Source: Collinsella sp.
Lineage (GTDB): Bacteria > Actinomycetota > Coriobacteriia > Coriobacteriales > Coriobacteriaceae
Assembly (NCBI GenBank): GCA_029264355.1
Contig: JARIBW010000038.1
Span: 1-46,413 of the forward strand
Direction of reading: 5' to 3'
DNA: 46,413 nucleotides
Shown: one piece after another, positions 5,175 to 33,712 of the stretch
Layout: every line of letters starts with the position of its first letter
How positions within the stretch are numbered: the stretch's first letter is position 1
Position numbers and translations under genes: made by a program
The notes under the pieces: model-generated
Databases searched by the model: none
Told to the model about the DNA's origin: nothing
What the model saw: the letters and a program-made list of their open reading frames with translations, nothing else

Positions 5175-5534
5175 TTAGGCCTCGAGAGCCTTCTTGGCGA
5201 TGGTGGCGAGCTCGTTGAAGGACTCGATGTCCTCATAAGCCATCTGAGCGAGAACCTTGCGGTCGAGCTCGATGCCGGCGAGCTTCAGGCCGTGCATGAA
5301 CTGGGAGTAGGAAATGTCGTTCATGCGAGCGGCGGCGTTGATACGGGTGATCCACAGGGAGCGGATCTCACGCTTCTTGTTGCGGCGATCGCGGTACTGG
5401 TACTGGAGGGAGTGCTGCACCTGCTCCTTGGCGTACTTATAGGAACGGGATGCCTGACCGTAATAACCCTTTGCACGGTTGAGGACGGTACGACGCTTCT
5501 TCTTGGCGTTCACAGCGCGCTTCACACGAGCCAT
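5175..5534 (-). CDS. rplT: 50S ribosomal protein L20
   Basis: L20 binds 23S rRNA early in large-subunit assembly and, in well-studied bacteria, also represses its own operon. The 119-residue product begins [18 protein letters not shown] and contains the family core around residues 20-60 ([19 protein letters not shown], then [16 protein letters not shown]), at the usual family length. AGGAG lies about 9 bases before the ATG. It is the last gene of infC-rpmI-rplT, 42 bases after rpmI, and is followed at once by a hairpin terminator. Confidence 0.98.
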
Positions 5535-5576
5535 ATCTAATCAACTCCTAAATGAGATTACAGCGGTAAGTACGGA

Positions 5577-5774
5577 TTAACGGCCGGCGAGGCGGGCGTT
5601 GATGACCTTGGCGTCGGCGGCGGCCAACTCGGTCTCCTGACGGAAGCCGCGCTTGCGCTTGGTGGACTTCTTGGTCAGGATGTGGCTCTTGTAAGCCTTG
5701 GCACGCATGATCTTGCCGGTGCCGCTGCGGCGGAAACGCTTCTTGCTGCCGCTGTGGGTCTTCATCTTAGGCAT
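5577..5774 (-). CDS. rpmI: 50S ribosomal protein L35
   Basis: A 65-residue, very basic protein beginning [20 protein letters not shown], the standard L35 start, with the expected KRKRGFR segment in the second half. It is a structural component of the large ribosomal subunit. AAGGAG precedes the ATG by 6 bases. It lies 29 bases downstream of infC and 42 bases upstream of rplT, the common order for this operon. Confidence 0.98.
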
Positions 5775-5803
5775 GGAAAACTCCTTCTGATACCTGTGGT
5801 TGA

Positions 5804-6361
5804 CTACTTATCGCTCGGCTCGGCGTCGCCCTCGTTGTCGAAGGCGCCCTTGATCGGGGCGAGCAGCATGAGCATGTTACGGCCTTCCAGCTTGGGCTGG
5901 GACTCGACCGTAGCGAACGGTTTGAGGTCCTCTGCGAGGCGCTCGAGCACGTTCAGACCCTGCTCCGGGTGGGCCATCTCGCGGCCGCGGAACATGATGG
6001 TGATCTTGACGCGCGCGCCCTTCTTGAGGAAGCGCAGGACGTGACCCTTCTTGGTCTCGTAATCCCCCACGTCGATCTTCGGCCGGAACTTCATTTCCTT
6101 GACCTCGACCTTGGACTGGTTCTTACGAGCCTGCTTGGCCTTCATGGCCTGCTGGTACTTGAACTTGCCGTAGTCCATGACCTTGCACACGGGAGGCTCG
6201 GCGTTGGGCGCGATCTCCACCAAGTCAAGGTTCTGGTCGTCGGCGATGCGCTGCGCATCACGAGTGTCGAACAAACCCAGCTGCGATCCATCGACGCCGA
6301 TGAGACGAACGCGCGGGGCGCGGATCTCATCGTTGATGCGGGTGTCATCAGACTTAGCTAT
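5804..6361 (-). CDS. infC: Translation initiation factor IF-3, probably starting at AUA
   Basis: IF-3 binds the 30S subunit, keeps subunits apart and checks start-codon fidelity. The 185-residue product has the N-domain signature [17 protein letters not shown] near its start and the C-domain segment [18 protein letters not shown]. An in-frame ATG exists at 6427, but the first 22 residues it adds would be translated through the attenuator hairpin and show no family match. The strong AAGGAGG (6369-6375) sits 7 bases before an ATA codon at 6361 and only 1 base before an ATT at 6367, so AUA is the best-spaced start. Rare start codons are a known self-control device of infC, because IF-3 itself rejects them. 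The start call is inference; the gene identity is certain. Confidence 0.93.
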
Positions 6362-6389
6362 CTCAATACCTCCTTCTTGCAACTCGAAC

Positions 6390-6421
6390 AAAAAACCCGG
6401 CCACCTCAACGGTATCCGGGT
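6390..6421 (-). promoter_or_regulatory. Attenuator hairpin in the infC leader
   Basis: On the minus strand, ACCCGG pairs with CCGGGT (6416-6421 with 6395-6400, plus a 2-bp inner stem) and is followed directly by six T residues. This is an intrinsic terminator placed about 30 bases upstream of the infC start and after a structured leader, as expected for transcription attenuation. L20-responsive leaders upstream of infC-rpmI-rplT are known in other bacteria; that L20 is the ligand here is inference. Confidence 0.75.
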
Positions 6422-25803: not shown

Positions 25804-26769
25804 TCATGGCACCAGGCCGCGCTGGACGAGGGGTCCGTCCGCTCGGCTCAAAGCCGTCCGGCCCCGGGCGTCGCACATGACATCACCGTACATCGCGTCA
25901 TCGAGGGGCAGTTCGTCGTGGAAGGCATACGTTCCGTCAGTCGCGATGAGCAGATAGTTGTCCTCAGCGCCAAATAAGGCATCCTCGCAAGGAACCACAT
26001 GGACGCGCGAGAACACCGAAGCGGCAGTCGCAGCTGCGTCTCGCAAGAAATCGACGTTCTCCCCACCCGCGGAAGTAACGACATTCGCGAGGTACAGGCC
26101 TCCGGGATTCAGGCAGGCCTTGACCTGGTGCAGGGCCTCCACCGTGGCAAGGGAGCGGACGGGCTCATGGCCCGCAAAGCAGTCGTTCACGATCGCATCG
26201 TAGCGCACCCCCTCGGCCATTGCCCGGGAGATGAGCGAGCGCGCGTCCGCCGTGATCAAACGCAGTCGATCGCCTGCGATGAGCTCGAGTTCATCGAGGA
26301 AAAACCACCGACGTGCCAACCTCGTGATGGATGGGTCGATTTCAACGACATCCATATCGATGGTCGGATGCGTGGTGAGCACATGCTTGGGATACGCGTA
26401 TCCACCGCCGCCCATCACGAGCACCCGATCGATACCGCGGCCCGTCGTCTCACGCTTGGCTGCTTCGGCATCGAACATGCGGTCAAATGCCCGATAGTAC
26501 GCGAACACCGGTTCAAAACGCCGCTCATCCAAATATGTGGCGCTCTGATACACACCGCCCTGTTGGAGAACGCGAACCCGATTGCCCGTCGTGTCTCGCA
26601 CCTCCTTCACCCGCGCCACGCCCGATTCGGTCCGCGCGGACCGCAGGCACCGAGATCCCGCAAAAAACGCAGTGGCGCCGGCGGCGGCGATTCCGAGGGC
26701 CGCGGCGGCGAGGGCCATCCCCGCCGCGATTCCGAAGCCCGCGGAAACGTTCGAGGGCTTTCGAGTCAT
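25804..26769 (-). CDS. Membrane-anchored spermidine-synthase-like protein
   Basis: A 321-residue protein with a hydrophobic Ala-rich N-terminus (about residues 9-37, one or two membrane segments) and a class I methyltransferase-like fold. It has motif I VLVMGGGGYAYPKH (about 116-129), the acidic motif VVEIDPSITRLARRW and YDAIVNDCFAGHEP, as in the spermidine synthase-like branch. Whether it transfers aminopropyl or methyl groups, or is catalytic at all, cannot be told. Its ATG overlaps the stop of the upstream elp3-like gene (ATGA), with AAAGGAG 5 bases before, so the two are co-translated. Confidence 0.8.
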   Translation of the reverse strand: MTRKPSNVSAGFGIAAGMALAAAALGIAAAGATAFFAGSRCLRSARTESGVARVKEVRDTTGNRVRVLQQGGVYQSATYLDERRFEPVFAYYRAFDRMFDAEAAKRETTGRGIDRVLVMGGGGYAYPKHVLTTHPTIDMDVVEIDPSITRLARRWFFLDELELIAGDRLRLITADARSLISRAMAEGVRYDAIVNDCFAGHEPVRSLATVEALHQVKACLNPGGLYLANVVTSAGGENVDFLRDAAATAASVFSRVHVVPCEDALFGAEDNYLLIATDGTYAFHDELPLDDAMYGDVMCDARGRTALSRADGPLVQRGLVP

Positions 26770-28694
26770 GAGAGCTCCTTTTGCTGATACAAGCCATGGT
26801 CGAGGAAGCCGAGATGACGGTAGTACTCGCGCGTTCCCACCGCGCTGATCACGTTGAGGCGCTCATAGCCGGCCTCGCGCGCGATCTCGGAGGCCCTCTC
26901 GATAAGGCGACGGCCAAGCCCCAGGTGTTGGGCGGATGTTCCACCCGTGCCGAGCTGCGTGGCCATGCCGTACACATGGACCTCGCGAATCATCGCCTCG
27001 CCCGCCACGATGGGTAGGAGCCCATCTCCAAAACCAGCCGCCCTGGATTTGGGATCCGCTTCGATGGAGGCGGACAACCCGCGCACATACCCCTCGTTCG
27101 GCAAGGACAGACGCAAGAAACCCGCGATGAGGTTCTCGGGCGTCACCCACTGCAAGAAGTGCTCGCGCGTGTTCGATGTCCCATACGAGACATCCTCCAT
27201 ACGCAGCTCGTCGACGGGCACTTCGCTCGTTGCGACCTCGCGGAAGCGGATCTCTTGGATGCCGCGCGCATCACCCTGGGAACGCAGGCGATTCTCTACG
27301 AGCTGACGAAGGTTGGGCTTCTTGTTCCCCGCCACGATGTCGTGCGAGGAAAAGTCGCGGATCATGCGCGAGATGCGGCAAAACGGAGGGGTTGCGGCGA
27401 CATCGCTCACCAAAATGTCGAGCAGCTCTGCCTCGGAGTAGGGCGCCCATGAGCCCGCCTCGAAGCGCTCCTGCAACCGCGCACCCTCGATGAGCGCGCA
27501 CGGATAGAGCTTGATCTCGTCGGGCTGAAACGGTAGACCGCGCACAAGTCGCAGGTAGTCGGCCTTATCCTGTTCCGGTGTGGAACCCAGCAGGTTGACC
27601 ATCGCGTGCGCGTGAATCTTGAACCCGAACGCGCGCAACAACTCGAACGCCCGCCCGATCTGGGAAACCTCGATGTCTCGGTCATTCGCATCCAAAACGG
27701 CCTGATCGAGGGACTGGATGCCCATCTGCACCTTGGTGCATCCAAGGCGACGGATCATCATCAGTGAACCGGGTGTGATGGCATCCGGACGCGTCTCCAC
27801 CACGAGCCCGACCACGCGGCAGCGGGCAGTCTCGTTTGCGCGCTGCAACCGCTCAAGCTCGTCAAACGTGGCGACCTGCTCGTCTGCGACGGCGCGCCAC
27901 GGGGACCCGGCGCCGTATAGATCGGAAAATGCCTGGTTGTAGGAGCACGCATGCTCGTCCAGCCGGCGCTGGACCTCTTCCGCCGCCCGATCGAGCTGTG
28001 CATCCCCCTGGGGAAATCCCAGCGTCCGGTACAGCTCTTTCCGTTCCTCGGCACTCGAGCGGGACGGCGCGCACGGTCGCCCGTCCCCTGCAGGGCCCGC
28101 AGCGGAACCGCGCGCGCCGTCCATAGCGGGCTCGAACTCGTTCAACGCGCGGAACAGCTCCGCGATGAACCACACCTGATAGCCCCGCGGATAGTCGCTC
28201 CAGGTTCCCCCGAGCACGATGAGCTCGATCTTGTCGACGGCGTGGCCCATCTGGCTGAGCGCGGTCAGACGCGATGTGACCTGCAGGTATGGATCGAACC
28301 AGTTTTGCTCGGCACGCTCGCACGCGGGCTCGTTGTGCAGATAGCTCTTGGGCATGCGGATATCGTTCGGGCAAAACAGGCAATCGCCGCCGCACGGCCA
28401 AGGCTTGGTGATAACCGTGATGGTCGCCACGCCCGAGGCGCTGCGCCGCGGCTTCATACGCAAAACGGCGAGGAGCCGCCTTTCGAGCTCGGGGGTCACG
28501 CCCCATGACTCCCAACGAGCGCGCTCCTCGCTCTTCACCCGCTGGTAGAACGGCAATAGGCGCCGCTTGGCGAATGTGCGCTTATCTGCACCGGAACGGC
28601 GCGCGGCCGCATGCCCCATCTTGAGCAAGGCGCGGTCGTCTACGCTCCGGCCGGCACGCAGCTCTTCGAGTATGTCGAGAATAATCTGTTCCAT
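26766..28694 (-). CDS. Elp3-like radical SAM/GNAT tRNA wobble-uridine modification enzyme
   Basis: A 642-residue homologue of Elp3, which in archaea, eukaryotes and some bacteria installs carboxymethyl groups on U34 of tRNA from acetyl-CoA. The radical SAM cluster is C101-x3-C105-x2-C108 in PWPCGGDCLFCPND. Elp3-type segments follow: IELIVLGGTWSDYP, VVGLVVETRPDAI, VQMGIQSLDQAVL and IHAHAMVNLLGSTPEQD. The C-terminal acetyltransferase domain shows QHLGLGRRL and YYRHLGF. A variable insert of about 35 residues near 193-227 (rich in Gly, Ala, Ser) is unusual. There is no clear RBS; the promoter nearly abuts the ATG. It is the first gene of a two-gene unit and is divergent from a Trm9-like methyltransferase. 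Confidence 0.92.
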   Translation of the reverse strand: MEQIILDILEELRAGRSVDDRALLKMGHAAARRSGADKRTFAKRRLLPFYQRVKSEERARWESWGVTPELERRLLAVLRMKPRRSASGVATITVITKPWPCGGDCLFCPNDIRMPKSYLHNEPACERAEQNWFDPYLQVTSRLTALSQMGHAVDKIELIVLGGTWSDYPRGYQVWFIAELFRALNEFEPAMDGARGSAAGPAGDGRPCAPSRSSAEERKELYRTLGFPQGDAQLDRAAEEVQRRLDEHACSYNQAFSDLYGAGSPWRAVADEQVATFDELERLQRANETARCRVVGLVVETRPDAITPGSLMMIRRLGCTKVQMGIQSLDQAVLDANDRDIEVSQIGRAFELLRAFGFKIHAHAMVNLLGSTPEQDKADYLRLVRGLPFQPDEIKLYPCALIEGARLQERFEAGSWAPYSEAELLDILVSDVAATPPFCRISRMIRDFSSHDIVAGNKKPNLRQLVENRLRSQGDARGIQEIRFREVATSEVPVDELRMEDVSYGTSNTREHFLQWVTPENLIAGFLRLSLPNEGYVRGLSASIEADPKSRAAGFGDGLLPIVAGEAMIREVHVYGMATQLGTGGTSAQHLGLGRRLIERASEIAREAGYERLNVISAVGTREYYRHLGFLDHGLYQQKELS

Positions 28695-28702
28695 GGACCC
28701 AT

Positions 28703-28731
28703 TGTATATGAGCCCCGCGTCTTCACCTCAA
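28703..28731 (-). promoter_or_regulatory. Candidate near-leaderless promoter of the elp3-like gene
   Basis: Minus strand TTGAGG (28726-28731), 17-base spacer, TATACA (28703-28708). The start codon lies only 8 bases downstream of the -10 box, so transcription would begin at or within a few bases of the ATG. This explains the missing ribosome binding site. Confidence 0.55.
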
Positions 28732-28751
28732 CGGATGCGGCCCGGAACACG

Positions 28752-28779
28752 TTGTCGTCTAAGCGTTCCGCTCTACAAT
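28752..28779 (+). promoter_or_regulatory. Candidate promoter of the Trm9-like gene
   Basis: TTGTCG (28752-28757), 16-base spacer and TACAAT (28774-28779), about 38 bases before the ATG at 28818. It is back to back with the elp3 promoter, leaving about 20 bases between the two -35 boxes. Confidence 0.5.
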
Positions 28780-28817
28780 AACCTTGTCGATATGGCCGCA
28801 TCTTCGCCGGGAGCCCC

Positions 28818-29645
28818 ATGGACCTCACCACCGCGCACAAGCTCATCGAGCTCAACAACCGCTTTTACGCCGAACACGCGGCATCATTCTCCGCGACGCG
28901 AAGCTCGCCGTGGGAAGGGTGGGGGCGCGCAGCCGAGCTCTTGACGCAACTCAACTGGGGTGGCGAGCACAAGGGCGACGGGCGCCATCCATTCGTGCTC
29001 GACCTCGCCTGCGGCAACTTGCGCTTCGAGCGGTTTCTCCTCGACGCATTTCCAGACCTCGACCTTCGATTCAACGCGATCGACGCCTGTCCCGAGCTTG
29101 CAAAAGACGCTTCCCAGATTCCCGGCACGACCTTTTTCAAGATGGATGTCCTCGGGAGCCTTCTCGACGACTGGACTTGTCTCGGCGCCCTTGGGCACGC
29201 CACCCCGAATCGTCACCTCGCCACCGCCGGTGTCCCCGCGTGCGATCTGACGGCCTGCTTCGGCTTCATGCATCACGTGCCGAGCTTTGCCATGCGGGCA
29301 TGCATGCTCGATATGCTCGTCGACCGCACCGCGCTCGGTGGGAATGTGATCATCTCATTTTGGCAGTTCATGCACGATGAGAGATTGGCACGCAAGGCCC
29401 TCGCAGCCGATTCCGTCGCCCGCGAGTCCACGTCGAACGTCATGTTCCCGCTCGACGAGAACGATCACTTCCTGGGCTGGCAATCCGACCCTTCCCCCTT
29501 GCGCTACTGCCACCATTTTGACGAATCGGAAATCGACGCGCTTGTAGCATCTGTGGGAACGCGCGTCCGCGAGATCGCGCGCTACTCCGCGGACGGGGGC
29601 TCTGGTACCCTCAATCGGTACCTGATCCTCGAACGGATCGCCTAA
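28818..29645 (+). CDS. SAM-dependent methyltransferase resembling Trm9/ALKBH8
   Basis: A 275-residue class I methyltransferase. Motif I is VLDLACGN (60-67) and motif II is NAIDACPEL. Three features recall eukaryotic Trm9/ALKBH8, which methylate cm5U34 of tRNA to mcm5U: an N-terminal FSATRSSPWEGW (24-35, like the F-TR-PW motif), the segment MHHVPSFAMRACMLDML (151-167, like HH-ST-ERR), and the C-terminal NRYLILERI. These resemblances are judged by eye and a generic methyltransferase is possible. The context, divergent from an Elp3-like enzyme and followed 46 bases on by trmB, supports a tRNA role. GGGAG precedes the ATG by 4 bases. Confidence 0.65.
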   Translation: MDLTTAHKLIELNNRFYAEHAASFSATRSSPWEGWGRAAELLTQLNWGGEHKGDGRHPFVLDLACGNLRFERFLLDAFPDLDLRFNAIDACPELAKDASQIPGTTFFKMDVLGSLLDDWTCLGALGHATPNRHLATAGVPACDLTACFGFMHHVPSFAMRACMLDMLVDRTALGGNVIISFWQFMHDERLARKALAADSVARESTSNVMFPLDENDHFLGWQSDPSPLRYCHHFDESEIDALVASVGTRVREIARYSADGGSGTLNRYLILERIA

Positions 29646-29691
29646 TCGACCTTTCCCGCTCATAAGCACCGACCCCATCCGAGAGGCCCCC

Positions 29692-30528
29692 ATGCACGCA
29701 CGTATGCCCAAGAACTTCGTCCTCGACCAGCGCATCGAGCGCGCGTCCGACGCCATCGAGACAGGCGCCGCGGCGTACCGGGGGCGCTGGGCCGAGGCAT
29801 GCTGCCCACTCATCCCCGGCGGCGCCGAGCGCTTCAATCACGTGCATCTCGATTTGGGCTGCGGCAAGGGCGCCTACCTCGCCGCCATGGCACAGCGCCA
29901 CCCTGACACCTTGTTCATCGGCATGGACAGCGAGCCCGTGTGTGTTGTGCATGCAGCTCAGTTGGTTCTCGACCTGGACATCAAAAACGCCCTGGTCATT
30001 CCCGGTGATGCCGCAAACCTAGCCGAGATCTTCGCGCCCGGGGAGCTCTCGAGCATCTCCATCAACTTTCCCACGCCCCATCCCAAGCGTCGCCACGCGC
30101 GGCTTCGCGTAACCACGGCCGAGCATCTCGACGGGTACCGCCCGCTCATCGCGGCGAACGGCATGCTCACGCTTCGCACGGACAGCCTACCGCTGTACGA
30201 GTATTCGTTACCGCAGTTCAAAGCCATCGGGTGGAAAGTGGTGTGCGCCACGCACGACGACCGCACCGCCCATCCCGAGCAGCCCATCACCGAGTACGAG
30301 CGGCGTCTTACCGGGCAGGGGGCGACTGTCCACGCGATCTACGCGCGACCTGCGGATAAGCCAGCCACGCCCGAGCAGCTTCAGTCCGCACTTGACCTCC
30401 CGCAAAGCCTTATCGACTATCTTCCCGAGGATCTTTTTGCCGAGGATTACATCCCCTACGGCATGAGCTACGCCGTAGACAACCTCCGCAACCGCCGTCA
30501 GCACCTCGCAGCGCGGCGAAATGCATAA
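29692..30528 (+). CDS. trmB: tRNA (guanine-N7)-methyltransferase
   Basis: Forms m7G at position 46 of tRNA using SAM. The 278-residue protein has motif I LDLGCGKG (53-60), the acidic IGMDSEP (76-82) and the TrmB signature region SINFPTPHPKRRHARLR (123-139), in which the usual DPWPKKRH reads TPHPKRRH. About 70 residues beyond the core make it longer than the family average. The start at 29692 follows GAGAGG by about 5 bases; an ATG at 29704 is the alternative. It lies 46 bases after the Trm9-like gene and is probably co-transcribed with it. Confidence 0.85.
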   Translation: MHARMPKNFVLDQRIERASDAIETGAAAYRGRWAEACCPLIPGGAERFNHVHLDLGCGKGAYLAAMAQRHPDTLFIGMDSEPVCVVHAAQLVLDLDIKNALVIPGDAANLAEIFAPGELSSISINFPTPHPKRRHARLRVTTAEHLDGYRPLIAANGMLTLRTDSLPLYEYSLPQFKAIGWKVVCATHDDRTAHPEQPITEYERRLTGQGATVHAIYARPADKPATPEQLQSALDLPQSLIDYLPEDLFAEDYIPYGMSYAVDNLRNRRQHLAARRNA

Positions 30529-30970: not shown

Positions 30971-33712
30971 ATGCCCGACGTGACCAACACTACCGACCCT
31001 TTTGCCCACGGCTCCCTGGGCTCGCTCGCACCCAGCTGGTGGGAACCGGAAACCGACGGAACCGAGCAGGTTTCACAACCCGATCCATGGCTGACGCCCG
31101 AAGAGGCATACGAACGGTTCATGGAATGGGTCTCCTCTCGCGGCATCGAACCCTGGGAACACCAGGAAGATGCACTGTTCTCCCTGGCCACGGGCAGTAA
31201 CGTGATCTTGGGCACACCAACGGGTTCGGGCAAGTCGCTCGTCGCGCTCGGGATGATGTTCATGGCCATGGCCAGCGGACAGCGCGCCTACTACACCGCA
31301 CCGATCAAGGCCCTCGTGTCCGAGAAGTTCTTCTACCTGGTCGACATCCTCGGACGTGACAACGTGGGCATGATCACCGGCGACTCGCATATCAACACCG
31401 GGGCCCCCGTCATCTGCTGCACCGCCGAGATCCTCGCCAATCAGGCGCTGCGCGAAGGTGAGGACACCGATGCGGGCTGCGTCGCCATGGACGAGTTCCA
31501 CTTCTTCTCCGATCCGGATCGCGGCTGGGCCTGGCAGGTCCCGCTGCTCACACTGCCCCACACGCAATTCCTGCTCATGAGCGCCACTTTGGGCGACATG
31601 ACCTCCATCGGAGACGCCCTCACCCGTACCACCGGACGTGAACTGGAGCTCATCGCCGACGCTCCGCGCCCGGTGCCCCTCTCCTACGAATACGTGAAAA
31701 CCGCACTGGAGGGAACGGTCGAACTCGCCCTGAGACAAGGCGACTCACCACTATATATCGTGCACTTCTCCCAAGACGCGGCCCTTCAATCCGCTCGCGC
31801 GCTTGCAAGCTACGGCGTCGCCGGCAAGGAGCAGCGCGAGGCCATCAAGGAGGCCATCAAGGGAGAGCGTTTCACCACGGCATTCGGCAAGACGCTCAAG
31901 CACCTCATCTCGAGCGGCGTTGGCCTGCACCACGCCGGCATGCTGCCCCGCTACCGCTTGCTCGTCGAAAAGCTCGCGCAACAGGGCCTGCTTCCCGTGA
32001 TTTGCGGCACCGATACGCTCGGCGTGGGGATCAACGTGCCCATCCACACCGTTCTGCTCACCGGCCTCACGAAATTCGACGGCTACAAGCAGCGTCGCCT
32101 GCGCTCGCGCGAGTTCCATCAGATCGCCGGGCGCGCGGGCCGCTCGGGCTTCGACACCGAGGGCGTGGTCATCGCCGAGGCCCCCGAGTTCGAGATTGAG
32201 AACCATAAAGCTGAGCTCAAGGCCATGGGCGACCCCAAAAAGATGAAGAAGATCAAGAAGAAGCGCCCGCCGGAGGGCTTTGTAACCTGGAATGAGGACA
32301 CCTTCACCCGCCTGATCGAAAGCGAGCCCGAGACCCTCAAGCCCCGTCTGCGAATCACGCACTCCATGGTGCTCGCAGAGGTCGAGCAAGGTGGCGACGC
32401 CTGGAAGCGCGTGCTGGCACTCATCGACGCGTCGCTTCAGACCCCCGAAGAGAAGGCGAGGCTGAAGGGGCGCGCCGCGGAAATCTTCGCCACGCTCATC
32501 GACGCCGGAGTCGTGGTGCGCGAATCCGTGGATCCCGATGACCACAGCGCCGATTCGTTTCCGACGGTCTCGCTCACCGAGGCCCCCGAGAACCTGGACG
32601 AGCTGAGGGCGCTCGACGTCGGAAACGATGAGGGGGATGCGGCGGCGGACGCAACTCCGGGACATCCGCTTGACGGCCCCGCCTCGTACTTCCTCACGGT
32701 CGACCTGCCCGAGGACTTTGCCCTCGATCAGCCGCTCTCCCCGTTCCTGCTCGCGGCGCTCGAACTGCTCGATCCGGAAAGCCCCACGTACACACTCGAC
32801 CTCATCTCCATGGTCGAAGCGACGCTCGAAGACCCCAAGCAGATACTGCGGGCGCAGGAACGTCGCGCCCGCGATGCGGCGATGAACGCCATGAAGGCGG
32901 AGGGCATCGACTTTGAGGAGAGCGTCGATCGGCTACAGGACGTCACGTACCCAAAACCGCTCGAGGAGATGCTCGACGTTGCGTTCGCCACGTACTGCGC
33001 GCAAGTCCCATGGGCAAACGACTACGAGCTCAGCCCCAAGTCGGTCCTGCGCGACATGCTCGAGACCGGTTGCGACTTCAAGAGCTATATCGCGCAGTAC
33101 AAGATCGCGCGGTGCGAGGGCATCCTGTTGCGCTACCTCACCGAGGCCTACCGCTCGCTGGATCGCACCGTGCCGGTGGAGCGTCGCACCGAGGAGCTCG
33201 ACGATATCGTTTCCTGGCTGGGACTCGTGGTGCGTTCCGTCGACTCGAGCCTTGTGGACGAGTGGGCCAACGCGGGCGCGGAGCCGGGCGCGGCTCCCAT
33301 CAAGCACGGAGACGAGGTGGTCGCCGACCGCCGCGGCATGACGCTCATGGTGCGCAACACCTTGTTCCAGCGCGTGCGCCTCGTCGCCCTCGACCGTGCC
33401 GACGCCCTCGGGGACCTCGACGCCGATTGGGGCTACGGCGAGAGCCGCTGGGCACGAGTGCTCGACGCGTTCTATGAGGCGCACGAAGATCTGCTCACCG
33501 ATGCCGATGCGCGATCGGCCGCGTTCCTTGAAATCGACGAATCGGACGAGCGGTCCGATCACGTTTGGCACGTGCACCAAGTGTTCCACGATTCGGACGG
33601 CGACCACGACTTCGGCATCATGGCCGACGTCGACCTGGATGCCACGCAAGACGGCGACGGCATCGTCTTCAAGAACTACCGAGCCGGCGCGATCGAGGAC
33701 CTCGTTCGCTAG
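30971..33712 (+). CDS. Ski2-like DEAD/DEAH-box helicase with DUF3516
   Basis: A 913-residue superfamily 2 helicase of the actinobacterial DUF3516 type, related to Ski2/Mtr4 RNA helicases. Walker A is GTPTGSGKS (81-89), followed by APIKALVSEKF (110-120), DEFH (174-177), MSATLGDM (about 199-206), and in domain 2 GVGLHHAGMLPRYR, TDTLGVGINVP and HQIAGRAGRSG. A Lys-rich patch (KKMKKIKKK) starts the linker to the C-terminal DUF3516 region, which occupies about 450-913. It is thought to act in RNA processing or decay; no direct evidence here. The RBS is weak and no clear promoter was found. Confidence 0.93.
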   Translation: MPDVTNTTDPFAHGSLGSLAPSWWEPETDGTEQVSQPDPWLTPEEAYERFMEWVSSRGIEPWEHQEDALFSLATGSNVILGTPTGSGKSLVALGMMFMAMASGQRAYYTAPIKALVSEKFFYLVDILGRDNVGMITGDSHINTGAPVICCTAEILANQALREGEDTDAGCVAMDEFHFFSDPDRGWAWQVPLLTLPHTQFLLMSATLGDMTSIGDALTRTTGRELELIADAPRPVPLSYEYVKTALEGTVELALRQGDSPLYIVHFSQDAALQSARALASYGVAGKEQREAIKEAIKGERFTTAFGKTLKHLISSGVGLHHAGMLPRYRLLVEKLAQQGLLPVICGTDTLGVGINVPIHTVLLTGLTKFDGYKQRRLRSREFHQIAGRAGRSGFDTEGVVIAEAPEFEIENHKAELKAMGDPKKMKKIKKKRPPEGFVTWNEDTFTRLIESEPETLKPRLRITHSMVLAEVEQGGDAWKRVLALIDASLQTPEEKARLKGRAAEIFATLIDAGVVVRESVDPDDHSADSFPTVSLTEAPENLDELRALDVGNDEGDAAADATPGHPLDGPASYFLTVDLPEDFALDQPLSPFLLAALELLDPESPTYTLDLISMVEATLEDPKQILRAQERRARDAAMNAMKAEGIDFEESVDRLQDVTYPKPLEEMLDVAFATYCAQVPWANDYELSPKSVLRDMLETGCDFKSYIAQYKIARCEGILLRYLTEAYRSLDRTVPVERRTEELDDIVSWLGLVVRSVDSSLVDEWANAGAEPGAAPIKHGDEVVADRRGMTLMVRNTLFQRVRLVALDRADALGDLDADWGYGESRWARVLDAFYEAHEDLLTDADARSAAFLEIDESDERSDHVWHVHQVFHDSDGDHDFGIMADVDLDATQDGDGIVFKNYRAGAIEDLVR

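Follow-up and report, generated by a model that had tools for sequence, protein, structure and literature searches.

A bacterial Elp3 paired with a Trm9-like methyltransferase in Collinsella and its relatives, a predicted route to mcm5U34

In yeast and humans, Elp3 and Trm9-type enzymes make the methyl-ester mark mcm5U (5-methoxycarbonylmethyluridine) on tRNA. Archaeal Trm9 functions with Trm112 (PMC7694415), and in Sulfolobus the Elp3 and Trm9 genes are clustered (PMC2584109, PMC5372719). Bacterial Elp3 is known from one clade, Dehalococcoides, for which no derivative of 5-carboxymethyluridine at wobble position 34 (cm5U34) and no partner methyltransferase have been described, and there is no direct evidence there for cm5U derivatives (PMC7663514). 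Homologues of Trm112-dependent methyltransferases, Trm9 included, were reported as undetectable in bacteria (PMC5372719), and neither mcm5U nor its 2-thiolated form mcm5s2U has been assigned to Bacteria (PMC7694415). We found no paper on Elp3 with Coriobacteria in the open-licence literature, though an earlier report elsewhere is possible. Here we analyzed a 46,413-nucleotide stretch of Collinsella sp. (GenBank assembly GCA_029264355.1, contig JARIBW010000038.1, positions 1 to 46,413, forward strand; hereafter the window), in which an elp3 gene and a gene for a Trm9-like methyltransferase diverge from each other. Judged from its sequence, this divergent pair very likely encodes a two-step wobble-uridine pathway to mcm5U34 or mcm5(s2)U34. 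Homology of both proteins, conserved catalytic residues, near-perfect co-occurrence, absence of MnmE/MnmG and presence of MnmA are directly established.

The Elp3 and methyltransferase proteins

The elp3 gene (26766..28694, (-) strand) encodes 642 amino acids with radical S-adenosylmethionine (SAM) and GNAT/lysine acetyltransferase (KAT) domains, and its product is predicted to make cm5U34. The protein scores 391 bits with TIGR01211 ELP3, above the curated cut-off of 350, and its matches in the PDB are the Elp3 proteins of Dehalococcoides, Methanocaldococcus and yeast (E 1e-73 to 1e-60). Together with intact catalytic residues, this score upholds the Elp3-like radical SAM/GNAT identity that a sequence-only reading of the window had given to the gene. 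Alignment to DmcElp3 and MinElp3 places the CxxxCxxC motif of the [4Fe-4S] cluster at Cys101, Cys105 and Cys108 (28371..28394, (-)), and these cysteines are invariant in 43/43 Coriobacteriia Elp3s. The KAT residues of DmcElp3 and MinElp3 are, in Dmc numbering, K77, K193, E386, H388 and Y441 (PMC6367351). The acetyl-CoA/trigger residues K77, K193, E386 and Y441 correspond to Lys155, Lys395, Glu571 and Tyr624/625 of the window protein, and these, together with His573, are again invariant in all 43.

The radical-SAM domain of the window Elp3 also carries an insertion of about 90 residues (residues ~187-278; 27861..28136, (-), from the alignment). An insertion of 68-125 residues is found at this place in 42 of the 43 Coriobacteriia proteins, and it is absent from DmcElp3, MinElp3 and other actinobacterial Elp3s, which have four residues there. 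The Zn-binding cysteine triad is lost in the Coriobacteriia Elp3s, with I/V, E/D and varied residues at its three positions. All six actinobacterial Elp3s from outside the class have the triad and lack the insertion. The triad belongs to bacterial and archaeal Elp3 and is absent from eukaryotic Elp3, and hence does not define the family. Coriobacterial Elp3 is thus a distinct lineage, yet one partnered by the same methyltransferase family.

The methyltransferase gene (28818..29645, (+) strand) encodes a 275-amino-acid class I enzyme, a predicted cm5U34 carboxyl methyltransferase. On its own, the protein gave no convincing Pfam, NCBIfam or PDB match. Since these single-sequence searches were uninformative, its identity had to be sought with a profile of 60 orthologues, which share 36-79% identity with the window protein. 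Searched against all PDB sequences, the orthologue profile ranked 5cm2_Z first (E 1.9e-7), which is the Trm9 subunit of the Yarrowia lipolytica Trm9-Trm112 complex; the next match followed at 1.9e-4, and CmoA matched weakly (E 0.005). We also compared the profile by hhalign with a set of three Trm9 sequences, namely 5cm2 from the PDB, one haloarchaeal protein from a database record, and a yeast Trm9 that served only for searching and numbering. The alignment reached a probability of 99.2% (E 2.4e-19) and covered 205 columns from the FSATR motif through the C-terminus, with weak results for the controls TrmB (53.9% over 38 columns) and the spermidine-synthase family (5.2%).

Named relatives found with the methyltransferase profile come nearly all from Coriobacteriia, the closest being that of Collinsella intestinalis (79% identity), and include C. 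aerofaciens, Enorma, Slackia, Adlercreutzia, Atopobium and Lancefieldella, which points to a Collinsella-type species as the source of the window. Outside the class, six genomes from three families, found in a sample of 296 genomes across Actinomycetota, carry shorter homologues of about 240 amino acids. Five of the six were scored with the Trm9 set and reached 109-122 bits. One of these homologues matches the Trm9 structure end to end (E 1.9e-18), with Trm9 more than five orders of magnitude ahead of any other structure. The shorter proteins bridge the coriobacterial methyltransferases to Trm9.

The Trm9 signature is kept throughout the coriobacterial family as FSxTRxxPW, HH, W, D..W, RYxH and N. 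In the window protein it comprises the motifs FSATRSSPW (residues 24-32; 28887..28913, (+)), HH (His152-His153; 29271..29276, (+)) and RYCHH (residues 229-233; 29502..29516, (+)), and Asn266 (29613..29615, (+)). FSATRSSPW, HH, RYCHHF and N266 vary little or not at all across the 60 orthologues and align with their Trm9 counterparts; the invariant residues include F16, Y17, F24, R28, W32, G34, W35, D62 and G66, and likewise H152, H153, W182, D216, W221, R229, C231, H232 and N266. In yeast Trm9, five alanine substitutions, R29A, H115A, R241A, Y243A and N271A, compromise both tRNA binding and activity (PMC5372719). By alignment these five residues correspond to Arg28, His152, Arg229, Cys231 and Asn266 of the window protein, so that four of the five (R29, H115, R241 and N271) are conserved, each invariant in all 60 orthologues. 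Both the first rank of Trm9 in the profile search and the alignment of these motifs with Trm9 bear out the Trm9-like assignment that the sequence-only reading had drawn from the motifs.

Co-occurrence and gene arrangement

We surveyed both genes in 199 Coriobacteriia genomes and in the phylum sample. Within the class, both are present in 96 genomes, the methyltransferase alone in none and Elp3 alone in two (G096 and G198); in these two Elp3 lies at a contig start, where a divergent neighbor would fall at or beyond the edge. In the phylum sample, the identical 23 of 296 genomes carry Elp3 and the methyltransferase, 17 of which are also in the class sample. Because the genomes are related, these counts are not independent trials. 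Among the named loci, Elp3 lies near the methyltransferase in 75 of 80, with 74 divergent and that of Adlercreutzia equolifaciens (L160) an overlapping tandem; of the other five, in which no Elp3 is visible, four have the methyltransferase at a contig start.

In 94 pairs the two genes lie on one contig. The genes are divergent within 1.5 kb in 68 (median gap 142 bases) and divergent at 1.5-5 kb in 21; three pairs are tandem and separated by about 4 to 12 bases, and in the remaining two the genes are ~240 kb (G136) and ~78 kb (G163) apart. The recurrence of the divergent layout across the class indicates that it is not due to chance, and with at least two pairs far apart co-occurrence does not need linkage. 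In addition, both genes are missing together within two genera (G056 in g15 and G112 in g25). Joint presence when unlinked and joint absence within a genus argue for functional dependence, and we conclude that the pairing of Elp3 and methyltransferase is real, old and functionally linked. The earlier proposal of a bacterial Elp3/Trm9-like pair in a divergent layout is thereby strengthened: the layout recurs across the class, Trm9 and not an unrelated family is the best match, and co-occurrence is essentially perfect, with 96 genomes carrying both genes and none the methyltransferase alone.

In C. aerofaciens (L111:4097-5967), genes for an HTH (helix-turn-helix) regulator-like protein and a membrane-anchored protein lie on the Elp3 strand between Elp3 and the methyltransferase, filling about 2 kb, and the divergent arrangement is kept despite them. 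Genome G058 has two genes for the Trm9-like methyltransferase, one adjacent to Elp3 and an additional one that is unlinked (L060:2774-3595, G058:C4).

The predicted wobble-uridine pathway and its alternatives

In the predicted pathway, Elp3 would use acetyl-CoA and radical SAM chemistry to carboxymethylate U34 of split-box tRNAs at C5, giving cm5U34, and the Trm9-like enzyme would then methylate the carboxylate in a SAM-dependent step, converting cm5U34 to mcm5U34. From the evidence above we infer the substrate, the product, the order of the steps and the independence from Trm112. The genomic context is consistent with such a route. Of the 199 Coriobacteriia genomes, one has MnmG and none has an MnmE that exceeds the cut-off, so the class lacks the route by which bacteria usually modify U34. 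MnmE profile matches in 109 genomes covered the GTPase domain only, stayed below the cut-off and were taken as other GTPases. The sole full-scoring MnmG (G071, C8:4785-6362) occurs without MnmE over the cut-off and may reflect contamination or a recent transfer. The Elp3 and Trm9-like enzymes would thus stand in place of MnmE/MnmG, with the methyltransferase working without Trm112. MnmA was detected in 17/17 tested genomes (over the cut-off in 15, as fragments in the other two), which makes 2-thiolation available; by analogy with the yeast pathway, tRNA-Lys, -Glu and -Gln would be expected to end up with mcm5s2U34 through thiolation by MnmA.

Several observations weigh against this assignment. 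With the profile of the three Trm9 sequences, the window methyltransferase scores just 20 bits, less than an RlmA-like protein from its own genome. When that genome was searched with the profile, the window gene was missed, and the matches were the RlmA-like protein and TrmB. A profile this narrow does not capture so derived a member, while relatives of it reach 52 bits. An AlphaFold2 model of the protein (pLDDT, predicted local distance difference test, 93.7) has the class I fold; its top structural match by VIA-align is METTL6 (Z 20.1, root-mean-square deviation 3.3, 224 residues aligned) and not Trm9, and 5cm2 ranks 16 by Foldseek, with a fold common to hundreds of chains. Trm9 falls outside the top 50 VIA-align entries, but class I methyltransferases all match one another, so this is no evidence against Trm9. 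Yeast Tyr243 is replaced by Cys231 in all 60 orthologues. In actinobacterial members outside Coriobacteriia the position is Cys, Tyr, Phe or Val, with the motif RYCH or RYYH in some, and Tyr243, though functionally important in yeast, is not known as a requirement across the Trm9/ALKBH8 family. Trm112 (PF03966) was below the cut-off in 15/15 Coriobacteriia tested, whereas the characterized eukaryotic and archaeal enzymes work with it; a single marginal match over the cut-off came from G230, outside the class. With no Trm112 above the cut-off, the methyltransferase probably acts alone and is probably Trm112-independent. Finally, coriobacterial Elp3 lacks the Zn-cysteine triad and has the large insertion, so its activity could differ.

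In one alternative, the methyltransferase acts downstream of Elp3 but yields another product, either because it methylates another cm5U derivative or because the Elp3 product is not cm5U, in which case the pair would be real and the final nucleoside new. The altered Elp3, the cysteine (Cys231) that replaces Tyr243 in the RYxH motif, which binds substrate, and the failure to find Trm112 all fit such a scheme. It is nevertheless unlikely, as the Elp3 catalytic residues tested are all invariant, the Trm9 residues R29, H115, R241 and N271 are kept, and in other Actinomycetota a canonical Elp3 is paired with methyltransferases of this very family, in some cases with RYYH. A different substrate is also conceivable, with the enzyme esterifying another wobble carboxylate (5-carboxymethoxyuridine to its methyl ester, cmo5U to mcmo5U, in a CmoM-like manner) or acting at another tRNA position (3-methylcytidine at position 32, m3C32, in a METTL6-like manner), and co-occurring with Elp3 since both serve decoding. 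The shared class I fold, the METTL6 (tRNA m3C32) match at Z 20.1 and the weak CmoA profile match (E 0.005) could be read this way. CmoB (TIGR00452) was below the cut-off in 21/21 tested genomes carrying the pair, however, which speaks against a cmo5U substrate; profiles rank Trm9 first by three orders of magnitude, and strict co-occurrence, unlinked cases included, fits a substrate-product relation, which leaves a different substrate very unlikely.

The co-occurrence itself could mostly reflect inheritance, with two genes side by side in one clade being lost as a block without functional dependence. Most pairs are indeed adjacent, one deletion would remove both, and the related genomes are not independent. 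The pattern persists, however, in G136 and G163, whose two genes are unlinked although they share a contig, presence is mixed inside genera g15 and g25, where G056 and G112 lack both genes, and three further families of Actinomycetota, whose Elp3 is of another lineage, show the same pattern. Inheritance without dependence is accordingly extremely unlikely.

As the two genes are kept or lost together, Collinsella and dozens of related bacteria that carry them probably have the 'eukaryotic' mcm5U mark on their tRNA. More broadly, it is fairly likely that gut bacteria (Collinsella, Adlercreutzia, Slackia, Atopobium) and some other Actinomycetota make mcm5U34/mcm5s2U34 through a Trm112-independent Trm9 branch that occurs strictly together with a stand-alone bacterial Elp3 and substitutes for MnmE/MnmG. 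This would bring eukaryotic wobble chemistry into common gut bacteria, explain U34 modification in a class without MnmE/MnmG, and signify that a Trm9-type enzyme can act without Trm112. Because several hosts are culturable, the formation of cm5U derivatives by Elp3 in any bacterium is directly testable.

Neighboring genes and comparison with known systems

The open reading frames named in the sequence-only reading are all present at the positions given there. The divergent elp3 and methyltransferase genes are separated by 123 bp (28695..28817), in which a consensus scan found one sigma-70-like site (28752-28779, (+)) against 0.1 expected, a match that does not by itself indicate function. A spermidine-synthase-like gene (25804-26769, (-)) overlaps the end of elp3 by 4 bases at its start, and its product has a hydrophobic N-terminus. 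It had been suggested as a third member, but it does not track Elp3: homologues are widespread in the class (146/199 genomes), including many genomes that lack Elp3, and frequently occupy a different locus, and the gene sits beside elp3 mainly in the Collinsella family. We therefore rejected it as part of the pathway. On the other side, the gene downstream of the methyltransferase (29692-30528, (+)) is trmB, as had been read, with 122 bits to TIGR00091 (cut-off 112.65); it adjoins the pair only in the Collinsella family (f1) and was likewise set aside as a pathway member. Downstream of trmB, the window encodes a DEAD-box helicase with a DUF3516 domain (579 bits; 30971-33712).

Compared with the eukaryotic Elongator/Elp3 and Trm9-Trm112 (ALKBH8-TRMT112) system, the Collinsella pair has the same Elp3 catalytic residues and the Trm9 signature. 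It differs in that no Trm112 was found, Tyr243 is Cys, Elp3 has an insertion, and the genes are adjacent in a bacterium; the further subunits of Elongator are not expected in Collinsella, although no search for them was made. The archaeal system of Haloferax volcanii and Sulfolobus likewise consists of a stand-alone Elp3 and a Trm9 homologue, with Trm112 as the partner that stayed below the cut-off in Coriobacteriia, and the coriobacterial methyltransferase has extra segments. On a plasmid of the haloarchaeon Natronorubrum bangense, too, a gene for a Trm9-like methyltransferase is followed, 1.8 kb downstream, by a radical SAM gene (L213:2956-3666, 5434-6408). The Elp3 of Dehalococcoides mccartyi is also bacterial and stand-alone with the same catalytic residues, but unlike Collinsella Elp3 it has the Zn-cysteine triad and no insertion. 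MnmE/MnmG with MnmC or MnmM, which makes 5-methylaminomethyluridine (mnm5U34), is also a two-stage U34 modification ending in a SAM-dependent methyl transfer, by a chemistry unrelated to that of the Elp3/Trm9-like pair. We do not class the pair with the Trm9-Trm112 holoenzyme, since the search for Trm112 did not find it and one of the substrate residues is changed; it is a bacterial variant of a known pathway, like Elp3 plus Trm9.

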